A DNA stretch of 37,801 bases from a virus: the IMG/VR virus record IMGVR_UViG_3300015189_000009, positions 1-37,801 of that record, one strand, 5' to 3'. Within the stretch, counting starts at the first letter, position 1. Each line of letters opens with the position of its first letter. The notes beneath the pieces were generated by a model that did not search any database, was not told the origin of the DNA, and was given only the letters and a program-made list of their open reading frames with translations. Of this stretch, positions 447 through 37,801 are shown one piece after another. The translations under genes were made by a program, and so were the position numbers.

Positions 447-818
447 ATGGCAATACCATACTTACTAAAAATAAACGGTCAGGATATAAATAAAATCGCG
501 TCATATAAAGTTGAGCGGAATAAGCTTTGGAAGGACGCTAATCGCAATATGCGCGGAGAGCTTAAGACTACCAAAATTGGAGTATTCCCAAAGATCCTAC
601 TAAAAATCAACCCTACTACTGAAGATGAATATTCCGACCTTATCGCGTTACTAGATCTAGACTCATTCAATGTTGCTTGGTATGACGCAGGTAGCAAAGG
701 AATCAAAACAGGAGTTTACTACGCTAGCGATTTTGGGGCCAATATCATGAGCCTACACAAAGGCGGTATGCACGAGGCATTTGAGGTCAACCTTATTCCT
801 TACACACGCCTATCATGA
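447..818 (+). CDS. Distal tail-type protein (DUF6711-like)
   Basis: A 123-residue protein directly after the tape measure gene, the normal position of the distal tail (Dit) protein that joins the tail tube to the tip. The N-terminus (PYLLKINGQDINKIASYKVE) and the remainder resemble the small phage tail proteins grouped as DUF6711: a short β-strand start, a central conserved stretch on measured displacement, and a C-terminal strand ending in VNLIPY. There is no galectin-like C-terminal extension, so it corresponds to a short Dit. Its stop overlaps the next start by 4 bases (ATGA), which suggests translational coupling. The family assignment is from memory of the pattern; position and size support it. 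Confidence 0.7.
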   Translation: MAIPYLLKINGQDINKIASYKVERNKLWKDANRNMRGELKTTKIGVFPKILLKINPTTEDEYSDLIALLDLDSFNVAWYDAGSKGIKTGVYYASDFGANIMSLHKGGMHEAFEVNLIPYTRLS

Positions 819-1813
819 TAGAAACATCACCCGAATTCAAAACTGCAGTACGTGGCTACGCTAAGCAGATAAATTTCATTATCACCGACGGTACTGACGA
901 AATCACCTCAGATGACGATATTAAGTCCGTAGAGATAAGCGAGATAGGCAATATCTGTAAAACCTTAATGAGAATGGCCACTATTGAGTATTTTGGAGAT
1001 CACAGCTACCTAGACAAATACGTGCAATTATCATTCGGTCTTGGAATACCAGAAGCTGTAAACCTTGGGTCGGTAACTATCAGTACAATTACATCTATTC
1101 TGACATTAACTAGTCATGGTCTAATCACCGGCGAGGAATTAAGCCTCACTACAACGGGCGCATTCCCTAACGAAATAGAGTCAGGTACGCACTATTACGC
1201 AATTGTTATCGACGAAAATACTTTCTACTTAGCTGATAGCTACCAGAACGCAATGAGCAATATGCCGTTAACCTTAACCGGTAGTAGTACTGGCACAAAC
1301 ACGCTATACCATTACCCACACGATAGCATAGGTTCAACCGAGTTCATTAGTTACGGCAGCTTTAAAGTTACTAATCAGAGGACTACAAAAGGGAGTGATG
1401 TAGTTACACTCACAGCTTACGACAAAATGGTTGAAGCTCTGCAAAAATATGACTTAGAACTATCTTACCCGATGTCTATGCTTGAATTTCTACAAGCGGT
1501 ATGTGATCGATTCGGTTGGACATTGGCAACTACAAGCTTTCCTAATAATGATTTAGTAATAACGGCTGAACTATTCTCAAATCTAAACTTACCATTTCGG
1601 GACATCCTAGATCAGGTAGCCGAGGCTTCCGGGTCAATAATTCGATTTAATACAAGTGATGAACTAGTCGTAATACAGATTGGCGATACAGTGCTTGAAA
1701 CTCTAGACTCAGGTGATCTTAATAAATTAGACCTTGAGGAAATTTACGGTCCAGTTGCGGCGGTAATTCTAAGCCGTCAGCCTCAGGGCGACGATATTAT
1801 TCAATCAATCTAA
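815..1813 (+). CDS. Tail hub protein, N-terminal half (prophage tail endopeptidase-type)
   Basis: A 332-residue protein that resembles the N-terminal half of the tail-tip hub (Tal/gp44-like) of Gram-positive phages. Residues about 1-85 and 175-330 carry the family pattern, including LTAYDKMVEALQKYDLELSYP, a segment FLQAVCDRFGWTL, and YGPVAAVILSRQPQGDDI near the end. In usual hubs the chain continues after the SRQPQ motif into a second half; here it stops after seven more residues. The missing half is recognisable in the gene at 4374. Residues about 88-170 look like an inserted β-domain with TSHGLITGEELSLTTTGAFP, a pattern common in phage adhesins. Function as one half of a two-chain hub is inferred. 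Confidence 0.72.
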   Translation: MIETSPEFKTAVRGYAKQINFIITDGTDEITSDDDIKSVEISEIGNICKTLMRMATIEYFGDHSYLDKYVQLSFGLGIPEAVNLGSVTISTITSILTLTSHGLITGEELSLTTTGAFPNEIESGTHYYAIVIDENTFYLADSYQNAMSNMPLTLTGSSTGTNTLYHYPHDSIGSTEFISYGSFKVTNQRTTKGSDVVTLTAYDKMVEALQKYDLELSYPMSMLEFLQAVCDRFGWTLATTSFPNNDLVITAELFSNLNLPFRDILDQVAEASGSIIRFNTSDELVVIQIGDTVLETLDSGDLNKLDLEEIYGPVAAVILSRQPQGDDIIQSI

Positions 1814-1819
1814 ATAACT

Positions 1820-4129
1820 ATGGCTACAGACAAAAAAATCACACAATTAATCGAGACAGTAACCCTTAATCCAACCGACATTGTGCCTATCGTGCAATTA
1901 GGAGAGGATGACGCTCCTGACGTCACAAGGAAGGTTCCACTTTCTGAATTAGACGCTCGTTTCGGTCGAACTCCTGCAGACTCGGTGCTTGATGGTGAGG
2001 TCCCAGTATTTGATGGTGTAGACGGCGTACTGCTAAGAGGTAGTGGGCTTCAAATACTCGATGAACTCCTGCAGCAATTGGCTTTCGTTATCAACGGACA
2101 GGATGCTTACTCCGACTATAAATTTACTACTGAAGATATTACCCCAGGCGGTGACGGCCGAGTCCACTACGCTATATTTGGTGAGTCTGATAGCCAAGAT
2201 AAGGTTAAGCTAACCGAGAATGATATCTACGGCATTCACGGTATGATCCGACAAGTGCCAGGGTCACATATCGAGGGCTTTGTCGCAAAACCTAGTCCAA
2301 AATCATCCAACCCGAATTATAGAATAAACTCTTCCCCTCAGGGAATGATGAAGATCGAACTTGGTAATGGTTTCGACGAAACAGATGTTTACTTCTCCCG
2401 CGTTGCTAAATCTCTAGCCGCAATAATGATCAATAAGGATAGCGACATTAAAGATATGCCGTTACTTGCGGATTTTGATAATGTAATGCTCAAGAACCCA
2501 TACTCTCTAGGTGATCTTACAGTTATTGGACTCGTAGCAGGAGATAAAGTAAGCAGTACTTGGACCGGAAACGACTCTACAGGTTCGGACTTAATAACTA
2601 ATGGCGACTTCGCAACAGGTGGAACGTGGACACTGGGAACCGGCTGGGCAATAAGTGCGGGCAAAGCGACACACACAACTAAGCAGGGTAGCGTAAGCAA
2701 TGGAGCAAATCTTTATCAGGATGTCACACTAACTGCAGGCTCAGTGTATGAGTTCAAAGTGACCGTCAGCGGAATGGCAAAGGGATCATTAGAACTCGGG
2801 CTAGGAACTAGTAAGGCCGAGATTATTCGATCGGACGGTACTTACACCAAGTACATCACAGCAACTAGCGGTGGAAGTGCTCAGGCGATTCTTAAAGCAA
2901 GCTACAAATTTGATGGTAGTGTTGATGATGTCTCACTTAAAGAATGTGCTAACTGGCATAAGAGTAATCACTTATTTAATGGGTTCGTACACAATCCCGT
3001 TTCTGGTAGCGTAGTCGTACTTGAGAACGCATCCAGCACAGTATCTGCCGAGACATACCTCCTATATTTTACGGTTGGTTCAACTCTAGACGATGCGACC
3101 CTTGTAGGTAGTATCACCCCATCTATTGGCGGCACAAACGGCACAGTAATTACTGCTAAGGGTACTTATAAACAGGTGATTACTGCAGCGAATACTAATA
3201 ATTTGAAATTTACTCCAAGTAGCGGTTTTAACGGATTTATTCAAAGCATATCGATGCGAAAAGTTACCAATGGTAACGTATACGCAGATAATATCAGGGC
3301 ACGAACTGCCGATGGGCTTCGTTTAAGTCGTATGGACGGGCAAGGTGGATTATTCTTAGACAATAACGGACGAATTGGTTATGGAACTGATACTCCGAGT
3401 GTTAACGTAGACTTCTACAGCAATAATACTAGCACCACACCTTTCCAAAGTATTGAGCAGGACGGCAACGGGGATGCGGTATATCGATTACTATTGACTG
3501 CGACTAGAGCTTATTCATTTGGTATCGACAACTCAGCAACCGGTGATCCTTACCGCATATCAGCATCTTCCGGAGGATTATCAGATGCTAACTACATATA
3601 CGAACTAACCGCCGCCGGTTTAGCTACTAACCTAGCTCACCGAACGTTGATTACGGATCGAGCAACTCCGAGTTATGCGCGCACAGGCGGGGTATTATTC
3701 TCAAATATTACACCGGTTGGAAATGTTGGTACCGGTGAGGATGACTTGATGCAGTCCAGTATTGCAGCAAATATCCTAAGTGCCGACGGTCAAGCCCTAG
3801 AGATAGAGGCCGCAGGTACGTTCGCAGCAAACGCCAATAATAAGCGTCTTAAACTATACCATGGCAGTACAACGTTGATTGATAGTACAGCACTTGCACT
3901 TAATGGGGGTGACTGGCATCTATCTTGCAAAATCGTTCGCACAGGTAGTAGCAATCAAGTAGTAGTGACCACGTTAAGAAGCTCAAACGCTTTACTTGTT
4001 AGCATGGTGAAAGTCACTGCAGCAACTGAGGACCTGACAGCCGCACACACTCTTAAGTTGACGTTCGCAGGTACTGCAGATAATGACGGCATTTGTTCAA
4101 TGTTACATATCAAATGGCTTCCAGCCTAA
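1820..4129 (+). CDS. Tail fibre / receptor-binding protein with carbohydrate-binding-like domains
   Basis: A 769-residue adhesin-type protein. The N-terminus (ATDKKITQLIETVTLNPTDI followed by VPIVQL) is the attachment motif seen at the start of many phage fibres. Residues about 255-370 (LITNGDFATGGTWTLGTGW onward) resemble a CBM4_9-type jelly-roll carbohydrate-binding module, and a second similar block follows at about 375-480. Around 510 there is a GRIGYGTDTPSVNVDF stretch of the kind found in fibre shafts, and the last 160 residues (GTFAANANNKRLKLYHGST) match a common fibre tip domain. It lies between the two halves of the hub. It probably recognises cell-surface glycans; the target is unknown. 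Confidence 0.75.
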   Translation: MATDKKITQLIETVTLNPTDIVPIVQLGEDDAPDVTRKVPLSELDARFGRTPADSVLDGEVPVFDGVDGVLLRGSGLQILDELLQQLAFVINGQDAYSDYKFTTEDITPGGDGRVHYAIFGESDSQDKVKLTENDIYGIHGMIRQVPGSHIEGFVAKPSPKSSNPNYRINSSPQGMMKIELGNGFDETDVYFSRVAKSLAAIMINKDSDIKDMPLLADFDNVMLKNPYSLGDLTVIGLVAGDKVSSTWTGNDSTGSDLITNGDFATGGTWTLGTGWAISAGKATHTTKQGSVSNGANLYQDVTLTAGSVYEFKVTVSGMAKGSLELGLGTSKAEIIRSDGTYTKYITATSGGSAQAILKASYKFDGSVDDVSLKECANWHKSNHLFNGFVHNPVSGSVVVLENASSTVSAETYLLYFTVGSTLDDATLVGSITPSIGGTNGTVITAKGTYKQVITAANTNNLKFTPSSGFNGFIQSISMRKVTNGNVYADNIRARTADGLRLSRMDGQGGLFLDNNGRIGYGTDTPSVNVDFYSNNTSTTPFQSIEQDGNGDAVYRLLLTATRAYSFGIDNSATGDPYRISASSGGLSDANYIYELTAAGLATNLAHRTLITDRATPSYARTGGVLFSNITPVGNVGTGEDDLMQSSIAANILSADGQALEIEAAGTFAANANNKRLKLYHGSTTLIDSTALALNGGDWHLSCKIVRTGSSNQVVVTTLRSSNALLVSMVKVTAATEDLTAAHTLKLTFAGTADNDGICSMLHIKWLPA

Positions 4130-4154
4130 TTAATTTATTATTACTAACCTAGTT

Positions 4155-4373
4155 ATGAAAACAGACATGAATATCGAGGGGATGAGCTTGGTGGACCTTA
4201 AAGCATTATCTTTTGACATCACTCAAGAAACGATGCACTTAACCGATTTAGGGCGCAAGGTAATCGCTAGAATTGTAGCTATGCAGATGCAGGAGAAAGC
4301 GGCTAAAGCTAAACAATCCGAAGCGCTTGAAGAACTCTCAGATGTAATTAACACTGAACAAAATCAAGGTTAA
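4155..4373 (+). CDS. Small helical protein next to tail fibre
   Basis: A 72-residue, largely α-helical protein with the pattern MSLVDLKALSFDITQETMHL followed by an amphipathic helix rich in Gln, Glu and Lys. Similar short helical proteins with an L-K-A-L-x-x-D-x core often sit beside phage fibre genes, where a chaperone or spacer role is suspected but not shown. Its stop codon is immediately followed by the ATG of the next gene. It is preceded by TAACCTAG upstream of the start, a context repeated before two other genes in the window. Function not established. Confidence 0.6.
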   Translation: MKTDMNIEGMSLVDLKALSFDITQETMHLTDLGRKVIARIVAMQMQEKAAKAKQSEALEELSDVINTEQNQG

Positions 4374-5747
4374 ATGGAAAAATCATATCTACTACAAGCT
4401 GAAGGGGGAAAGTTGCTCCAAGAGGACGGTGGTGGATTGTTATTGGAGCAATCGACTGTAGAGATTAAGATCGTAAACAACCAGTTCGTTGACGCCAATA
4501 GAGAAACCTACATAACGCCAATATTCGAGACTCTAGAGGGGCTTACCTTCTATCCTTTTGAGGCCGAAACTACTGGATTTGGTTACTTTGAGATTGGCGA
4601 TAGAGTAGTTGTTCAGGACCCGGCAGGAAACCCATTCGAGGTAGTAATCCTCTCGATCAATATGAAGTTTGACGGTGGCTTCAGGGAAGTAATTAAGGCA
4701 GCTATACCACCTCAAACAGAAAGTAATTACGCTTTGGGTGGAGTGCTGGGGCGCAGAATTACCAAGACAGAAATTAATGTTGATAAGCAAAATGGCAGAA
4801 TCGACTTGATAAACCAGACATTGCAAGAGGACTACCTTACTTCCGAGCAGACTACCGCACAGATCTCACTCGCTAACGAGTCGATAATTTCTTCCGTAGA
4901 GACAGTAACTAGCCAGGTAAATAATGCCGTGCTTCAGGGAGAGCAGAACGCAGACGCGATCACCACGATCCAATCCGATATTACACAAATAGAGCAGACT
5001 TCCGACCAAATCAATTTGAAAGTTGAGCGTACGGGTGGTGTGAACCTATTCAAGAATTCAACGGGTTTAAAAGGTAATGTGGTTGAGTGGCAAGAGTACT
5101 TAGATAACATCCTTATTGACTCAAGAAATAACGCAACGATCGATCAAAGTACCGAGGTTTCACAGAATTCAGAAAGTGGATCAGCTTTGGTAATCAATGA
5201 TCAATTTATAGAGCAGACTTTTAATTCAATCGTCGGGAATGTCTATACCTTCTATTGTCGATACAAAAGTGTAGGCGAAACCCGCCTAAATATCACCGGC
5301 GTCGATAGTGTGGTGATAATGCCTGAAAGTGCGGAATGGGCAGTATTCAAATATCAATTTACTGCAACCGATGTAACGACCACGGTTAGAATCGAAAATC
5401 TAAGTGATTGCACAGCGTACTTGTCCGACCTTGTGACTAAGATTGGCGAAGTCAGCGGTTGGGTCCAGGCACCAAATGAAGTCTATGGGTCAAATTTCAG
5501 TTTCGACAAAGATGGATTTAGGGTCAGATCACTAACTAGTAGTTTTGAATCCTTACTTGATAATGAGAAGCTGCAGGTAAAAGATACGGCCTCAAATAAG
5601 GTAGTAATGTTGGTATCTAAGGATTCAGGCAAGATCACAAAGTTAATAGTGCAAGAAGAACTGACGATTCAACGTTACGAAAACTCGGAAGCAAGTACCC
5701 GCGTAATCCCTACTGAGACTGGCTCAATGATAGTTATTAACGACTAA
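4374..5747 (+). CDS. Tail hub protein, C-terminal half with repetitive leader
   Basis: A 457-residue protein. Residues 1-25 are a glycine/leucine repeat (LLQAEGGKLLQEDGGGLLLE), a motif found in phage fibre and tip proteins. From about residue 28 the chain matches the second half of the hub family: IVNNQFVDANRETYITPIFE, then a FYPFEAETTGFGYFEIGDRV segment, DGGFREVIKAAIP, and RRITKTEINVDKQNGRIDLI, leading into a coiled region. In related phages these segments continue one chain from the SRQPQ motif, so this is the partner of the gene at 815. The C-terminal 250 residues look like β-rich baseplate sequence with another carbohydrate-module-like block at about 220-365. It probably assembles with the N-terminal half at the tail tip. 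Confidence 0.72.
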   Translation: MEKSYLLQAEGGKLLQEDGGGLLLEQSTVEIKIVNNQFVDANRETYITPIFETLEGLTFYPFEAETTGFGYFEIGDRVVVQDPAGNPFEVVILSINMKFDGGFREVIKAAIPPQTESNYALGGVLGRRITKTEINVDKQNGRIDLINQTLQEDYLTSEQTTAQISLANESIISSVETVTSQVNNAVLQGEQNADAITTIQSDITQIEQTSDQINLKVERTGGVNLFKNSTGLKGNVVEWQEYLDNILIDSRNNATIDQSTEVSQNSESGSALVINDQFIEQTFNSIVGNVYTFYCRYKSVGETRLNITGVDSVVIMPESAEWAVFKYQFTATDVTTTVRIENLSDCTAYLSDLVTKIGEVSGWVQAPNEVYGSNFSFDKDGFRVRSLTSSFESLLDNEKLQVKDTASNKVVMLVSKDSGKITKLIVQEELTIQRYENSEASTRVIPTETGSMIVIND

Positions 5748-5752
5748 ATATA

Positions 5753-7486
5753 ATGGCAAGAATAGACGGCGTTTTCACAGGTGCGAATCAACAATACAAT
5801 AAACCTTATCTGGAATACGATATTGTCCAGAATCTTGTGGATAACTATAGCGACATCACTGCTCGGTTATATTTTACCAAGACTCCCGTTACTGGGCGCG
5901 CCTCGTTTAACTTGAATACTAGCGTTGATGCTCACCAATGTAATTCCAACATTAACAACAATCAGAGCCAGGGTCCTTTCCCTTTTGACCTTAGAAGCAC
6001 TAATCTAGCGTTAATAAGAACAAGAACGCTGAGGGTGGATCATAACGTAGACGGCACTAAGACTAGTTGTTATATCGGTTTTAACGGAAGTACATTGACT
6101 AGTCTGGGCAACTACAATTTTGGACAAACAGTTACCTTACCTGCTATCCCTAGAGAAGCGACAATCACCAATCCCAACTTAAGTTTTGTAGTTGGTGAAG
6201 CCATTTCGCTTGCTATAAGCAATCCTGGGAATATGTACGTTAGAGCACTACTTTACGTTAATAGTGTTCTTATCAAAACCGTAGATCTAGATAGAGTAGT
6301 CTCCGCAAATATTGTTTTGGAACCCGCAGAAATGAACGCTATCTATGAGCAAATGCCAAACGCCCTATCTATGCCTATGTTTATCCGATTAAAGAGTTAC
6401 CAAAACTCTGCCTATTCGATTGTGATTGGCAGTGATAAAGATAAAGCCGGTACTGTTTATATTGATAGCTACATTAATACCCCGACATTTACGACATTCA
6501 CAATTGAGAATATAAGCAAGTTAGTACGTGTTACGGATAAATACGGTAATAATCTCCTAGAGAGTTACACAGACATACTGCTAGGTGCTAGTAGCCGCAT
6601 AATAAAGGGGTACTCTAAGATCAGAGCTACTATCTCGGTTGCTAATAAGGCCATCGCGAAGAACTTTGCAACTATGAATCGTTACCGATTTGTCGCTGGC
6701 AATAAGCAATCGGAATCAGCTTTCAGTGATGACGAAGATGTAATCATTGAGCTTGATAATGTAGATGTTGCTACTAATTCAGTATCAGCGCTTGATAGCA
6801 GAAGTCTAGCAACTACAGCGACTGGCTTATTTAATCTAATGGCAGAATACACACCAATTTCACTATTCAATTTAGTAGTCTCTAGAGCAAATAGCGTAGA
6901 TGCACTGACAACTCTAGAATTCTCTGGACTATTTTGGAATAAATACTTTTCATCCGGTACCACAAGCAACCCCGGCAGCGGAGTATTGAATACACTTAAA
7001 GTCGAGTATCGTTTTAAGGAAACATTAACTCCTTGGGGTAGCCAACCGTGGGCCGAAATCACTCCTTCAGTTGATTCTGAGGGTGTAGTGACGTTTAGCG
7101 ATACGGTAGATGGGGACCTAGGTATTACTGGCTTCGATGTTGATAAGTCGTTTAATATTGAAGTCCGTGCTTACGATAAATTATCAGCTACGATAATCGA
7201 GGGTCTGCTAGATGTCGGTACGCCTCTTATCGATCAAACTAAAAACGCAATAGGCATTAAGGGCAAAGTCGATTTAGATGATACCTCTGTGCTACAAATA
7301 GACGGGGGTGTTACTTTGCGACAAGCAGATACACCTTCAGACCCGAACGCTGATAGCGAGGCTAAACTATACATCAAAGGCAGTAAAGTAATACTCCAAT
7401 ATAACGATGGCGGTACCGTTCGATATAAATATATCGACATGGCCGGCACTGGCGACGTTTGGATTCACACCACCACAGCACCGTAA
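5753..7486 (+). CDS. Minor tail / tip fibre protein (DUF859-like)
   Basis: A 577-residue β-rich protein at the end of the tail module. The organisation resembles the DUF859 family of siphophage tail-tip proteins from streptococcal and related phages: an N-terminal β-sandwich (PYLEYDIVQNLVDNYSDITA), a central immunoglobulin-like region (LPAIPREATI), and a C-terminal strand region with GNAIGIKGKVDLDDTSV-type sequence (NAIGIKGKVDLDD). The chain ends in WIHTTTAP, a short terminal motif often seen in trimeric fibres. Start ATG lies 3 bases after the previous stop. It is likely a structural or receptor-contact component; enzymatic motifs are not visible. Confidence 0.7.
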   Translation: MARIDGVFTGANQQYNKPYLEYDIVQNLVDNYSDITARLYFTKTPVTGRASFNLNTSVDAHQCNSNINNNQSQGPFPFDLRSTNLALIRTRTLRVDHNVDGTKTSCYIGFNGSTLTSLGNYNFGQTVTLPAIPREATITNPNLSFVVGEAISLAISNPGNMYVRALLYVNSVLIKTVDLDRVVSANIVLEPAEMNAIYEQMPNALSMPMFIRLKSYQNSAYSIVIGSDKDKAGTVYIDSYINTPTFTTFTIENISKLVRVTDKYGNNLLESYTDILLGASSRIIKGYSKIRATISVANKAIAKNFATMNRYRFVAGNKQSESAFSDDEDVIIELDNVDVATNSVSALDSRSLATTATGLFNLMAEYTPISLFNLVVSRANSVDALTTLEFSGLFWNKYFSSGTTSNPGSGVLNTLKVEYRFKETLTPWGSQPWAEITPSVDSEGVVTFSDTVDGDLGITGFDVDKSFNIEVRAYDKLSATIIEGLLDVGTPLIDQTKNAIGIKGKVDLDDTSVLQIDGGVTLRQADTPSDPNADSEAKLYIKGSKVILQYNDGGTVRYKYIDMAGTGDVWIHTTTAP

Positions 7487-21410: not shown

Positions 21411-21767
21411 ATGCGAACTCACTCAGCTGACAGGGCTAAACAGCGCTTCGGCTTCAAATTAAAAGGTAAGCAGTTGAAAACTATCTGGCGTAGTATAGAC
21501 AACAATACCGCAATAGAGTCTCCATTCCACAACGAAGTAGTAACTTCGCGTAAAGCATTCCTAATCAAGCAAAAAAATACCGTGGCTAAGCTCATAGTGG
21601 ACCTGGTAGCCCGCAAAATTATTACCGTAGTATGGCCCTCAGTAAACGAGCGTGGTCTTATGATGGACCAACGTGGCGGGAAAGCGGACCCTATGCCATA
21701 CCACCAACAGAAAGTTTATAAACAACATTTTAAAGAGAAATGGGGAACAAAATGGCAACAAAGATAG
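21411..21767 (+). CDS. Small protein, possibly DUF4258-like
   Basis: A 118-residue protein from ATG 21411. THSADRAKQRFGFKLKGKQL and KAFLIKQKNTVAKLIVDLVA, then KIITVVWP, recall the H-x-x-x-R start and β-strand end of DUF4258-type small domains related to RelE-like folds; the match is weak. An ATG at 21369 would add 14 residues, but those bases hold control site 2. It overlaps the glycosyltransferase start. It may open the late packaging operon. Confidence 0.5.
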   Translation: MRTHSADRAKQRFGFKLKGKQLKTIWRSIDNNTAIESPFHNEVVTSRKAFLIKQKNTVAKLIVDLVARKIITVVWPSVNERGLMMDQRGGKADPMPYHQQKVYKQHFKEKWGTKWQQR

Positions 21768-23662
21768 ACATCACAATCGGAATACTTTTCTGCAATAAAC
21801 CGGAGCAGACAATCGAGTGTCTCCAGAGCTTCAAAGACTATCCTATTTATCTCGTAGACAACGGCTCAGACGAAGCTGCAGTTAAAAAGGTACTGAAGTA
21901 TATCGAGACTACAAAGAACGTCGATTACCACCGGTTACCAAAAAATATCGGTGTTGCAGGGGGTAGAAACAAGATAATCAATCAGATTAAATCGGAATGG
22001 ATTTTCTTCGTGGACAACGATATTACTATCAAGACTGAGAACTGGGGTTCTTTGCTGCAGCAAGCAATTAAGGATCATCCTGAAACTCTTGTCTTTGCTC
22101 CAAAATTGTTTAACGTCCACCTGAAAGCTTTGGAACATTTCTACTCATTTTCCGTACAGGGAAATAAGGCGGTTACCTACGTCTCAAAGACTGGGGAGTC
22201 AAATAAACTCAGCGGCGGAGCGGCCATCGTTAATAGGAAGTTATTTGAAATCAATGGTAGTTATGACGAAAGATTCTTCGTAGGATTCGAGGACTTTGAG
22301 TTCTGTCTACGTGCAATTAAGGCAGGCAGGGACCTAAGGGTAATCGAACTACGTAATATTGTACTTAACCATGACCACAGACAAGTCACCAATAACTACG
22401 ATAATGATTATTTACAGGTAAGATACAACGCTGAGAAAATCCAGAAGTCGTATAACCTGATTAAGGAGATTCATAATCTAACGTTGCCGGATAATGGTGT
22501 TAAATGGTCCCAGAAGAAAATAGAGCAAATGTCGGCCGATGTAACCTCAGACAAAAAGGGCAAGAATACTAGGATCATGCTATACCATCATGCTCAGTCA
22601 GGTATCGGAGGAGTAGAAACGTTTAACCGCAACTTCTGTAAACGACTTAGCCCGTACTACGATATAACTTTCCTTTGTCAGAGTATTGATAGTGACAATC
22701 TTGCCGCTATTGGTAAATATGCTGATATTGTTATCTACAAAGGCCAGGCAGTTGAAACAGATATATTTATTCATGGGGTAAGCTGGGGAATAAGACCTGA
22801 CAAGGTCAAGGCTCCAATGATGCTACAAATGATTCATGGCGACTTTGAGTGGATGAAAAACGATCTTCACTTCACATATAAGCCGATGCCTGGCGTTACT
22901 CACCACGTAGCAGTAGGAAAGAACGTAGCCGATAAGTTTAAGAAAGTAACCGGCATGGAAGCGAGTGTAATTTACAACGTACTTGATCTTGACGTAAAAC
23001 CAACAAAACTCCTTAAAATCATCTCTGTGATGCGCCTAGGAAGGGAGAAAGGTCTCGATAGGATGGAGATCATGGCAAGGAAATTCAAAGCGGCAGGAGT
23101 TAAATTCAGGTGGTTAGTATATGGCGACGGGACGGACAAGGCTTACGTCAAGGAAATGAAAGCTAAGTTTGACGATTTACCCGAAGTCATTTTTGCTGGC
23201 ATCAAGAAAGATACTGTCAGCGATGTAGCCGACGCAGATTACTTGGTTGCACTGAGTAAGAGCGAAGGCTTCTCTTATTCAATTTATGAGGCTCTGCAGG
23301 CGGGCACACCTTGTATCGTTACCAACTTCCCTAGCGCCTATGAGCAGGTTGAGGATGGTGTAAACGGCTTTATTGTTGATATGAAACTATCAAATTTAGA
23401 TGTAGATAAAGTTTACAATTCAAATCTTAAAGGCTTCAAATTCGAGGAGAAATCAACCGAAAAGGATTGGATTAAACTATTTGGTGGTAATGGAAAAATA
23501 GTAAATAAAACTACTAGGAAAGTAAGTACTATGAAGATTAAAGTTAAACGTCCCTACATGGATGTAGTATTGAATAGAAAGGTAATGAGCGGAGAAGTTC
23601 TTAATGTCATCAACACTCGCGGGCTGGAACTCATAGGTAAGAACCTAGCTTCAGCTATTTAA
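21740..23662 (+). CDS. Two-domain glycosyltransferase (GT2 + GT4) with C-terminal structural-type domain
   Basis: A 640-residue protein (636 from ATG 21752). Residues about 8-215 are a GT-A fold family 2 transferase: ITIGILFCNKPEQTIECL, VDNGSD, GVAGGRN, FFVDND (the DxD), GGAAIV and VGFEDFEFCLR. Residues about 278-570 are a GT-B family 4 transferase: GIGGVETFNRNF, SVMRLGREKGLDR, VYGDGT and SEGFSYSIYEALQAGTP (the EX7E motif). From M598 a 43-residue block resembles the whole N-terminal part of the next gene. It transfers sugars, probably to virion proteins or to host surface or DNA; the target is unknown. A transferase leading the packaging genes is unusual. Confidence 0.85.
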   Translation: MGNKMATKIDITIGILFCNKPEQTIECLQSFKDYPIYLVDNGSDEAAVKKVLKYIETTKNVDYHRLPKNIGVAGGRNKIINQIKSEWIFFVDNDITIKTENWGSLLQQAIKDHPETLVFAPKLFNVHLKALEHFYSFSVQGNKAVTYVSKTGESNKLSGGAAIVNRKLFEINGSYDERFFVGFEDFEFCLRAIKAGRDLRVIELRNIVLNHDHRQVTNNYDNDYLQVRYNAEKIQKSYNLIKEIHNLTLPDNGVKWSQKKIEQMSADVTSDKKGKNTRIMLYHHAQSGIGGVETFNRNFCKRLSPYYDITFLCQSIDSDNLAAIGKYADIVIYKGQAVETDIFIHGVSWGIRPDKVKAPMMLQMIHGDFEWMKNDLHFTYKPMPGVTHHVAVGKNVADKFKKVTGMEASVIYNVLDLDVKPTKLLKIISVMRLGREKGLDRMEIMARKFKAAGVKFRWLVYGDGTDKAYVKEMKAKFDDLPEVIFAGIKKDTVSDVADADYLVALSKSEGFSYSIYEALQAGTPCIVTNFPSAYEQVEDGVNGFIVDMKLSNLDVDKVYNSNLKGFKFEEKSTEKDWIKLFGGNGKIVNKTTRKVSTMKIKVKRPYMDVVLNRKVMSGEVLNVINTRGLELIGKNLASAI

Positions 23663-27094: not shown

Positions 27095-27444
27095 AACCAT
27101 ACACATATAACTTCACAATTCAGCAAGGCGAGACATTCCGCCGCACCTTCATTAACGAAAGTGAGGAACTAGATCTTGCAGATTATGAGTCGGTAAGGAT
27201 GCAGATAAGGTCCAGACCACAAGATCAGACTATTATCTGGGATAGCGAAGTTGATGGCTTACTAGAGCTGCAGGCTGATAGAATTGTGCTAATTATCTCC
27301 GCTGAGCTTACAGCTGCTTTCAATTTCACTACCGCCGGTTATGATATCGAACTAGTTAAAGCTGACGGCACAGTAGAGAAGTTGGCTAGGGGAGCAATTT
27401 CCCTAGTTCGCGAATATACTAAAGTACAGGAAATATCAGCATGA
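27091..27444 (+). CDS. Fibre-associated β protein
   Basis: A 117-residue protein. TYNFTIQQGETFRRTFINES, a YESVRMQIRSRPQDQTIIWD block and a central ISAELTAAF strand match a small phage family (FTIxQGxTFxxTF, ARMQIRS, LTISxxxTA) usually next to fibre genes, thought to be a structural adaptor. It overlaps both neighbours by 4 bases. Its place directly after the portal is unusual for a tail fibre adaptor. Confidence 0.65.
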   Translation: MKPYTYNFTIQQGETFRRTFINESEELDLADYESVRMQIRSRPQDQTIIWDSEVDGLLELQADRIVLIISAELTAAFNFTTAGYDIELVKADGTVEKLARGAISLVREYTKVQEISA

Positions 27445-29075
27445 ACGTAGAAGAAACAGTTGTCGAGTTTACAGTCACAGAGGACCCAGAAGTCGTCCTA
27501 ATGAGCTTCAACGTTGTCGGCTGGGCTGAGTCAGACCCTATCTGGCAGGCCGAAAAACCCGACTATTTAAGAGTCGATGACTTTAATGCTGACATTGATG
27601 AACATATTGAGAGTAACGAAGCCGTCGCTGCAGCAACTGAGCATATAAGTGATCTAGAAAACCCCCATCAAACAACTAAAGCACAGGTTGGATTATCTGC
27701 AGTAGACAATACTTCCGATCTAAACAAGCCAATAAGTAATCTAATGCAGGCGGCGTTAGATGATAAATCTGACGTAGGCCATACGCATATAGCTACTGAC
27801 ATTACCGACCTACAAGCTTTGCTCGACGATAAGCAAAACGCCCTTGGTTTCACTCCTGAGAATTCAGCAAATAAGAATCAAAATGACGGTTATGCTGGGC
27901 TTGATAGTTCCGGCTTAATCCCTACCGCTTTACTACCTGGCTACGTTGATGATGTATTGGAGTATGCTAATCTCGCAGCCTTCCCGGTAACCGGTGCCAC
28001 CGGCAAGATGTACATCGCGCTAGATTCAAATAAAACCTACCGCTGGAGTGGATCTGTATATGTCGAAATCTCGGCAAGCCCTGGCTCAACTGATTCGGTA
28101 ACTGAAGGAAGTGTAAATCTGTACTTCACAGCATCTAGAGTCCTAAGTACCGTTTTGACAGGCTTATCGTTACTAACAGGCGGAGTTATTTCTGCAACCG
28201 ATACTATCTTAGTAGCTCTAGGCAAATTACAGAAGCAAATCACTGACAATTTGGCAACATTAACCTCGCATACTAGCAATACTAGTAATCCTCATTCAGT
28301 AACTAAAGCACAAGTCGGACTATCTCTGGCAGATAATACCGCTGATAGCGCTAAGGTTGTAGCCTCGGCTGCAGTACTTACTACGGCAAGGAATATAGAC
28401 GGCCAATCATTTAATGGTAGTAATGATATTACAGTCATTGCGCCCGGCACTCACGAGGCCACAGGCAAGACAACGCCGGCGGATGCCGACGAACTACCCT
28501 TGGTAGATAGTGCCGCATCAAATGTCCTTAAAAAACTAACATGGGCTAATCTTAAAGCCACATTGAAAACCTACTTCGACACGCTTTACTTGCCTGTTGG
28601 AAGTTATGGCAATATGTATTCAAACATGCTTAATAGTGGTTCAGCACCAACCGGCACGGTTCTAACGACTATCACTGGTAGTCAGGATACTTATGTGGGG
28701 CTGTTGGGTGTAACACTTGCGGGAGCTAATCTAAACGGCTTCACAGTAACACCGGGCGACGCTACCAGTGTAGTTGGTCGCATTACGTATACAGGCCCAG
28801 CCACAAAGCTATTTCGTGTAGAGTGGACCTACTCTGCATCTACCTCAGAAACTACTATGTGGTATAAATTCGGACTATTGAAAAGTGGTACATTTGACCC
28901 AACGGCCGGAACTTCAAGAAATAAAGGAAGTGCTAATGTATTCAGTGGTGGCGGAAATGGAATAATATCACTGGCTCAAAATGGATACTTACAGCTTGCG
29001 TGTGCGCCATCTACAACAACGGCCGGGCAGGTAAGATTATTTGATGTAACAATCAGAGTCACAGCCATTAATTAA
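27441..29075 (+). CDS. Fibre-type adhesin in the head module
   Basis: A 544-residue protein with fibre shaft repeats. NPHQTTKAQVGLSAVDNTSD (about residue 72) recurs as NPHSVTKAQVGLSLADNTAD (about residue 280). GHTHIATDITDLQALLDDKQ, SVNLYFTASRVLSTV and ADELPLVDSAASNVLKKLTW are widespread fibre blocks. The last 150 residues form a β-rich tip (LLGVTLAGANLNGF). These features mark a host-contact fibre, but it lies between portal and minor head protein, so it may decorate the head or neck. Confidence 0.75.
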   Translation: MNVEETVVEFTVTEDPEVVLMSFNVVGWAESDPIWQAEKPDYLRVDDFNADIDEHIESNEAVAAATEHISDLENPHQTTKAQVGLSAVDNTSDLNKPISNLMQAALDDKSDVGHTHIATDITDLQALLDDKQNALGFTPENSANKNQNDGYAGLDSSGLIPTALLPGYVDDVLEYANLAAFPVTGATGKMYIALDSNKTYRWSGSVYVEISASPGSTDSVTEGSVNLYFTASRVLSTVLTGLSLLTGGVISATDTILVALGKLQKQITDNLATLTSHTSNTSNPHSVTKAQVGLSLADNTADSAKVVASAAVLTTARNIDGQSFNGSNDITVIAPGTHEATGKTTPADADELPLVDSAASNVLKKLTWANLKATLKTYFDTLYLPVGSYGNMYSNMLNSGSAPTGTVLTTITGSQDTYVGLLGVTLAGANLNGFTVTPGDATSVVGRITYTGPATKLFRVEWTYSASTSETTMWYKFGLLKSGTFDPTAGTSRNKGSANVFSGGGNGIISLAQNGYLQLACAPSTTTAGQVRLFDVTIRVTAIN

Positions 29076-35267: not shown

Positions 35268-37801
35268 AGATTGAAGAACTACAAGTTCTAATTTCAGCAA
35301 ATACAAATCAATTTACTAGCGAACTTAAGAAAGTCAACGAAAGCTTAAGTAAGCTAAATACCAATGCTACCAAAACAGGGGAGTCCATAGAGAGTAGCTT
35401 ATTCTCCAATGTGTTCGGCGCCAATGTCGCTGGAATGGCTTTCAGTAAAGGTATGGGAGTAATAACTTCCGGTATGACTAAGGTAATTGATGTATTTGAG
35501 ACAGCTAGCAAAGCTATTATTGAGAATGGATCAGCCTACTCGAGAATCAAGATCGCCACAGATACTGTCACCCAGAACTTAGGACTTACCCGAAAGGAAG
35601 TAGACGGACTTCGTGTTTCGCTGCAGGAAGCGAACGTATACGGTATACAAACAGAGCAAATTATCAAGACGCTAGCTCAATCAGGACTGTATAAAATGGC
35701 ACAGGGCCTCAAGGGAGTCGATGCAAGAACCGGCGAGACAGTAACCGGCGTTAATGCCCTGGTTCTATCCATGAAAGATTTATCCGCTGCAGCTGGGGTA
35801 GACTCGGCCGATGGTATCGAAAGACTTACCAAGTTTATCCGTCGTGGAGAAGCTACGTTTGCTGACGGTATTATCGAGATTGGTGAAATCAATCGTGAGT
35901 ATGGCGCCTACGCCCGAACTGTAGGTAAAACTACCGACACAATATCCGAGCAAGAACGTGCCCAGGTCCGATTTAATGTAGTAATGCGTGAGTCTAAAGC
36001 TACTTTCGGTGCTTACGCCAATACAATGATTAGTTCCGGTAAAGTATTCGACTCAATCGGTAATCGATTACAAGCAATGGCGACAACGATCGGCGCTGCC
36101 CTTGAGCCTATCTTCTCCGTAGTTGGAAACGCGATGTTTCAATTCCTAGGTGGACTAATGGGATCACTTAATGACAGTTCTGACGGAATTAGAGACTGGG
36201 CTACTCAAATAGCAGGCTATATCATGGGACTTGTCAGAGTGATTGGTCGAATGTTTAGCTGGGTTCCAATCTTAGGAGCTGGCTTCCAGAAGTTAGCTAA
36301 TTTCACCCTACAGCCTGCCAAGGGCCTAGGTAACGTAAAGAACCAGGCAACCGGAGCCGGCGGCGCTATGGACAAGCTAGCTGACAGCACTGCAGCGGCT
36401 AAAAAAGAACTAATGGGACTTGCAGGCTTCGATCAAATGGAAGTATTGAATCCACCAAGTGACTCAGGATCAGGCAGTAATAGTGGTGGGCTAGGTGGCG
36501 GTCTAGATGTCGCCGGTCTCGGCGGTAGCATCGATAGCGGACTTGACTTCGATACCATCAATAAACTAGCCGATGAAACCACGGCAAAATTTACTGAAAT
36601 GGGGCATTCCTTTAGCAATATGTTTAATCCTGCATACCTGCTACCACGACTACCAGGCCTAGTTAACTCCTTAGTCAATAGCTTTGGTAATGCCTTTGGC
36701 AGCATAGAGAATACAATGCAAAAGGTATTCGGCTTTGGTATCTCTGACTTAATTGCAGTGAACTTAATTGGTCCAATTTCAATGATACCTAAACTTATGG
36801 ATAGGTTAGGTGTATTCGACTTCTTTAAGCAGGGCAAGTCACAGGCGCTAAGTGAAGTGAAAGCCTTATCGAATGGCGCGCAATATGAAATCATTCAAAT
36901 GGCTGAAGGAATTACAGGTTATTTGGTCGTCCTGCAGGCTAACTCTGGGAGAATAACGAAGGTTAGTGCTGACAATATGATCAAAACGATCAACGATATG
37001 CGCGATAAGACAATTAAAGCTTCTGAGGACCGCACAAGCCGCACAATATCAGATCTGGAGCTACTAAGAGATAAATCTAAGGCAATAAATGATGATACTT
37101 ATAATCAGTTAGTTGCTAAGACTACCGACGCCGGCACTAAGCAAAAAGAGGCTACTAAACAACTGGCCCTAGACGTTGAAACGGAATTACGCAGACTGCA
37201 GGAGAGTGGCATCACTATTACCGATGAAATGCGCGCAGGAGTAACTGAGAAACTAACCAAACTCCGTGATGACGGGATTGTAGTAATGTCAGACAACCAG
37301 GTCCAACAAACGGCAATACTTGAAAAATTGCGTCAATCTTCTGACAAAATCTCTGCAGAGCAAGCCGCGTTTGCTATCGCTAAAAGTATGGAAAATACAA
37401 ACGCACAGATAGCCAACGCTAATAAGACCTATGATGACAGCGTCGCAGCGATTATCAGACTACGTGATGAATCCGGTACTATTACTAGCGATCAGGCTGA
37501 CGAAATGATCCGCAATGCCACAAGAACCCGCGACGAACAAGTAAAACTTGCCCAGGACGGACATACAAAGGTAGTTGATGAAGTAACTAAAATGGCTGGG
37601 GACAATATCAATCAAGTGGACCTAATGAGCGGCAAGGTAAAGAGTGGTTTCGAGTTAATGTTCTCCAATGTAACAAAGGGGCTAAATGACTTCGGTAATG
37701 ACTTTAAGAAGAAATGGGACGAATTCTGGGGGGTAAAGATACCTGAAGGTGTGGGCAAGCTGCGTTCCAAAATGGACGAAGTTTGGAATGGTATTCGTGC
37801 C
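35264..37801 (+). CDS. Tape measure protein, N-terminal part (continues at window start)
   Basis: 846 codons without a stop up to the last base; it continues at the window start to 443. The start KIEELQVLISANTNQFTSEL is a standard tape measure opening. Residues about 50-400 contain the typical Gly/Ala helices with MATTIGAALEPIFSVVGNAM; the stretch about 405-430 (SGSGSNSGGLGGGLDVAGLG-like, Gly/Ser-rich) is a flexible linker; the rest is helical with amphipathic repeats (LLRDKSKAINDDTYNQLVAK-like). The ATG overlaps the previous TGA. It sets tail length; at about 989 residues a tail of roughly 150 nm would be expected. Confidence 0.92.
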   Translation, partial: MKIEELQVLISANTNQFTSELKKVNESLSKLNTNATKTGESIESSLFSNVFGANVAGMAFSKGMGVITSGMTKVIDVFETASKAIIENGSAYSRIKIATDTVTQNLGLTRKEVDGLRVSLQEANVYGIQTEQIIKTLAQSGLYKMAQGLKGVDARTGETVTGVNALVLSMKDLSAAAGVDSADGIERLTKFIRRGEATFADGIIEIGEINREYGAYARTVGKTTDTISEQERAQVRFNVVMRESKATFGAYANTMISSGKVFDSIGNRLQAMATTIGAALEPIFSVVGNAMFQFLGGLMGSLNDSSDGIRDWATQIAGYIMGLVRVIGRMFSWVPILGAGFQKLANFTLQPAKGLGNVKNQATGAGGAMDKLADSTAAAKKELMGLAGFDQMEVLNPPSDSGSGSNSGGLGGGLDVAGLGGSIDSGLDFDTINKLADETTAKFTEMGHSFSNMFNPAYLLPRLPGLVNSLVNSFGNAFGSIENTMQKVFGFGISDLIAVNLIGPISMIPKLMDRLGVFDFFKQGKSQALSEVKALSNGAQYEIIQMAEGITGYLVVLQANSGRITKVSADNMIKTINDMRDKTIKASEDRTSRTISDLELLRDKSKAINDDTYNQLVAKTTDAGTKQKEATKQLALDVETELRRLQESGITITDEMRAGVTEKLTKLRDDGIVVMSDNQVQQTAILEKLRQSSDKISAEQAAFAIAKSMENTNAQIANANKTYDDSVAAIIRLRDESGTITSDQADEMIRNATRTRDEQVKLAQDGHTKVVDEVTKMAGDNINQVDLMSGKVKSGFELMFSNVTKGLNDFGNDFKKKWDEFWGVKIPEGVGKLRSKMDEVWNGIRA
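37791..37801. repeat. Terminal overlap, second copy
   Basis: Identical to bases 1-11; supports circular closure through the tape measure gene. Confidence 0.85.

Follow-up and report, generated by a model that had tools for sequence, protein, structure and literature searches.

Sequence comparisons confirm that two proteins of 332 and 457 residues represent the front and back parts of a single gp27/Mu-gp44-type tail hub whose gene is split by genes for a putative adhesin and a small protein. They are encoded in IMG/VR virus record IMGVR_UViG_3300015189_000009, of which we analysed a stretch of 37,801 nucleotides, called the window here. The hub is probably made as two chains that co-fold into each subunit, with the gap between their genes serving as a slot for adhesin cassettes.

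The split locus stands directly after the genes for the tape measure and a small tail protein, the position of gp27/Mu gp44-type hubs, and its four open reading frames lie where the original prediction had placed them (Table 1). The small tail protein gene shares 4 nt with the hub start, and the same gene precedes the hub in relatives. The front half ends SRQPQGDDIIQSI, and the back half consists of a leader followed by IVNNQFVDANRETYITPIFE. The hub fold is spread over two open reading frames 2.6 kb apart, departing from the single polypeptide that is usual, if not strictly defining, for hubs of this type.

Table 1. Features of the split hub locus, in positions of the window
Feature	Position	Strand	Evidence
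Small tail protein, DUF6711-like, phrog_1194	447..818	+	PHROG/family match; between tape measure and hub
Front half of gp27-type tail hub, 332 aa	815..1813	+	phrog_6616 match and 39% to single-chain L151
Module of ~90 residues within front half, residues ~83-172	1061..1330	+	Alignments
Break point: stop codon of the front half plus 6-nt spacer ahead of adhesin start	1811..1819	+	Sequence
Putative adhesin/tail fibre, 769 aa	1820..4129	+	Open reading frame; weak phrog_12940 tail-fibre match
72-aa protein	4155..4373	+	Open reading frame
Gly/Leu leader (LLQAEGGKLLQEDGGGLLLEQ) opening back half	4374..4457	+	In-chain in loop of single-chain relatives
Back half of tail hub and C-terminal extension, 457 aa	4374..5747	+	phrog_6616 match; 47-51% to relatives
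Hub-fold segment, back-half residues 29-143	4458..4802	+	C-half profile match
Long helix after hub fold, back-half residues 157-202	4842..4979	+	Predicted model
Carbohydrate-binding-module-like jelly roll, back-half residues ~255-357	5136..5444	+	Predicted model, fold matches
Downstream tail protein, 577 aa, phrog_372	5753..7486	+	Conserved behind hub in relatives

Several lines of evidence tie the two halves to one hub. Both match the PHROG tail family phrog_6616 with their order kept, the front half at positions 99-217 of 991 (E = 1.9e-18) and the back half at positions 263-342 (E = 3.3e-13). Further, a single homologue, the single-chain hub L151 of G041, covers both halves in order: its residues 1-323 align with residues 1-323 of the front half (39%, E = 9e-79) and its residues 339-446 with residues 6-107 of the back half (37%, E = 2e-16), leaving 15 residues between the matches. 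This search and alignment to an intact homologue had been suggested as a check on the claim that a hub gene has been split in two, and they bear it out. Both halves also align in order to the single-chain hubs of Oenococcus phage phi9805, Lactococcus phages TP712 and PLgT-1 and faecal phage contigs, and the back half matches at 47-51% the hubs of two other split loci, L169 and G036, as well as single-chain L163 and L161. Both reading frames are open, retain the invariant hub residues and are conserved about as well as the neighbouring genes.

The presence of an intact hub elsewhere would have spoken against a split; a search of the whole record found one copy of each half and no second hub. 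An 11-bp sequence (GTATTCGTGCC) stands at both ends of the record, 1-11 and 37791-37801, and the tape-measure frame is continuous through the join, from which we take the genome to be circular or circularly permuted, with a length of ~37,790 bp.

Relatives were reached by terminase and portal scans of viral contigs, whose whole records were then searched with each half, and further scans added records that include MAG and Saccharibacteria contigs. Hubs were called split or single-chain by whether profiles of the segments before and after the break both fell in one frame. They did so in 50 of 53 records and were broken in the other three; with three more single-chain records found later, 53 single-chain hubs stand against 3 split ones in 56 records, a count that includes near-duplicates and is not one of independent lineages. 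As the original prediction had stated, the two segments form one chain in related phages, with few exceptions. When either half served alone as the query against viral contigs, no usable locus was obtained, and plasmids gave no match. Only the already known genome was recovered from 287 sampled genomes of the phylum of G054, and likewise from 296 of the phylum of G051.

To place the break in three dimensions we used a predicted model of the single-chain relative L163, to whose fold the window halves are tied by sequence. This model, with pLDDT of ~82-96 over residues 1-330, has the hub fold, matching Mu gp44 with a Z score of 20.7 and T4 gp27 with 16.8; residues 16-334, a range that spans the break, match structures of Mu gp44, T4 gp27, VgrG and siphophage Tal. 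By alignment to L163, front halves stop after the strand at 234-239 and back halves start at the strand at 251-255, so that the break (about 240-250) replaces the short stretch between these strands, inside the hub fold. When the window back half was modelled alone, its residues 41-110 reached pLDDT of ~44-70, against ~87-95 for the L163 equivalent in a run that used a different alignment; the low values agree with a need for the front half and may partly reflect the alignment of the isolated chain. The predicted jelly roll of the back half (pLDDT ~85-94) matches the folds of CBM16, CBM4 and CBM61. Neither the hub nor the adhesin gave a sequence match to solved structures.

The loop that holds the break varies in length among single-chain family members. 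Most have 11-20 residues between the two profiles, with larger in-chain gaps of 43 residues in G041 and ~41 in L216, both containing a leader of the LLxEDG type that opens the window back half, and of ~151-158 residues at the same loop in G040, G042 and L191. The leader had been described as new to the split gene; its in-chain presence in single-chain L216 and L151 identifies it instead as a pre-existing loop element. The leader-like and the ~150-aa inserts are possible in-chain precursors at the break loop. By eye, the G040 and G042 inserts resemble carbohydrate-binding jelly rolls, a reading that a Pfam search of the G040 insert did not confirm.

Other parts of the hub vary as well. In the 996-aa G042 hub (L150), the match to the back-half profile falls into two separate stretches, as though that half had taken up an additional domain. 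The ~90-residue module of the front half is missing from many hubs and common to L151, L162 and L166. The same module, with its TLTSHGLxTGE... pattern, is also found within the downstream tail protein in both L169 and G036, and is apparently a shuffled domain.

All three split hubs are broken at the same loop, and the end points of their front halves differ by no more than a few residues. At the L169 locus, a 244-aa front half is followed by proteins of 364 aa and 397 aa and then by a 454-aa back half with the same type of leader; a second assembly of this locus, L160, is 99.95% identical over 14 kb. In G036, a 246-aa front half precedes a 970-aa chain of which the first ~540 residues are adhesin-like (MANRYWVGGTGTW...) and the rest is the back half. 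The leader is thus found on the back half in both phages with free-standing break proteins, while G036 has a fused adhesin in its place, which offers a hint, from three cases, that the leader caps or docks something. The split hubs are nested in a clade (96/88) of otherwise single-chain hubs, and their ancestry is single-chain. The best trees join the three splits, weakly (40/7 and 72/35 in two trees), and a single origin of the split is favoured on these sequence trees. As the three may share one origin, they do not amount to three independent confirmations.

Finally, the genes within the break differ among the three phages. No similarity was detected among the contents of the three breaks except between residues 4-76 of the window adhesin and the N-terminus of the L169 364-aa protein (33%, E = 5e-6 in a small comparison set), which itself has a tail-fibre PHROG match. 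The C-terminal part of the window's 769-aa protein matches a Microcystis phage protein, and we consider the whole a putative adhesin or tail fibre on the basis of weak family matches and the shared N-terminus. No protein similar to the 72-aa protein was found in the other two split loci. The GC3 of the adhesin gene, 0.388, is inside the range of the genome, so its composition carries no sign of recent import, and the repeats beside the break look like chance. The original prediction had proposed that host-range cassettes could be exchanged at this site. The break is common to three related phages while its genes differ between them, which lends the idea direct comparative support; no actual exchange between close relatives was observed.

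The main live rival to a two-chain hub is a separate role for the back half, in which the front half would be a truncated hub and the back half, rather than completing it, would have been re-purposed as a fibre base or carbohydrate-binding protein. The back half does have its own long helix and CBM-like domain, and its G036 counterpart forms one chain with an adhesin, but the back half still contains the hub-fold segment, invariant residues included, and the break falls within the fold; we regard this reading as unlikely, though deserving of attention. A good deal less probable is gene debris, in which an insertion broke the hub and left non-functional pieces, or the phage is defective. Such a history would fit the disruptive look of the arrangement and its rarity among the records, but not two open halves that keep their invariant residues at a conservation like that of their neighbours, the same break in two other phages, or a genome that closes into a circle and holds no other hub.

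We give very little credence to a continuous hub still arising through read-through of the stop, frameshifting, or splicing of RNA or protein. In the window, the front half and the adhesin do lie in one reading frame, with a single TAA between them, but by coordinates L169 and G036 do not preserve this relation, and read-through would join the adhesin rather than the back half to the front half; moreover, Rfam gave no intron in the break and the family matches include no intein. That the break arose in assembly is barely plausible, even for a record that derives from a metagenome and lacks a cultured phage: the genes around the site keep their order and their reading frames, the record closes into a circle, and the same break recurs in two other phages, one of them in two near-identical assemblies.

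The two-chain hub that we favour can be set against known systems. The likeness to gp27, Mu gp44, VgrG-N and siphophage Tal hubs lies in the predicted fold of the single-chain relative and in the place after the tape measure, and sequence relatives occur in Oenococcus, Lactobacillus and Lactococcus phages. Those of these known hubs that were examined run through the fold as one polypeptide, whereas the window has two genes with adhesin-like genes between them. The Tal hubs of Brussowvirus SW13 and TP-778L carry lysin modules in-chain between sub-domains 3 and 4 (PMC9437275). Like the window locus, they place extra modules inside a gp27-like domain; unlike it, their chain is continuous, that of the window being interrupted by a stop at 1811-1813 and a new start at 4374. 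Genes in pieces are known from T4-like phages, in which Aeh1 nrdA is split by mobE, with the enzyme staying functional, and the T4 topoisomerase gene by mobA (PMC2988022). There as here, one ancestral gene that is continuous in relatives has been split by inserted genes, but the T4-like insert is a homing endonuclease, whereas the window break has adhesin-like contents, among which family searches found no match to a homing nuclease. The mitochondrial cox2 gene of Campsomeris likewise underwent insertional fission into two complementary genes (PMC5374615), in a different protein and with an insert that carries a putative nuclease. Within the part of the literature that was covered, we found no account of a gp27-type hub encoded by two genes with adhesin-like genes lodged between them.

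Relatives of the hub are found in contigs classified as Saccharibacteria, Bacillota and Fusobacteria and in one Bacteroidota MAG, a spread that does not fix the host of the window. Hubs of the window's family were seen in the Candidatus Saccharibacteria contigs L191, L193, L198, L199 and L202, several of which exceed 100 kb and one of which is in Nanosyncoccus alces; the family appears to be widespread among phages or prophages of these tiny bacteria. In the window itself, a weak Shine-Dalgarno-like match was seen at 6 of the 41 gene starts. Elsewhere in the genome, a 544-aa protein at 27441-29075, between the portal and minor head genes, has small-segment matches to many tail, fibre and head PHROGs, and a 640-aa protein at 21740-23662 has two glycosyltransferase PHROG matches.

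As the front half ends directly after one beta strand and the back half restarts at the next, we propose that an exposed loop in the ancestral single chain has given way to the break. The halves would co-fold, three of each, into a trimeric hub under the tail tube. The break genes would encode adhesins, made beside the hub and mounted on or near it, where they may bind receptors; these genes could then be replaced at the slot with the hub core untouched. Because the break is tolerated, the site may work as an adhesin slot. We lean slightly towards the more specific form of this proposal, a two-chain gp27-fold hub whose break loop is a dedicated slot for exchangeable adhesins that was reached via in-chain loop inserts.

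Few parts of tailed phages and related injection machines are as conserved as the tail hub. If the proposal is true, a subunit built from two chains broken inside its fold would mean that the hub tolerates more than has been assumed, and the break would provide a concrete evolutionary route for swapping whole receptor-binding genes. Split hubs would then also be missed or mislabelled by gene-calling programs and structure surveys built on the expectation of a single hub gene.
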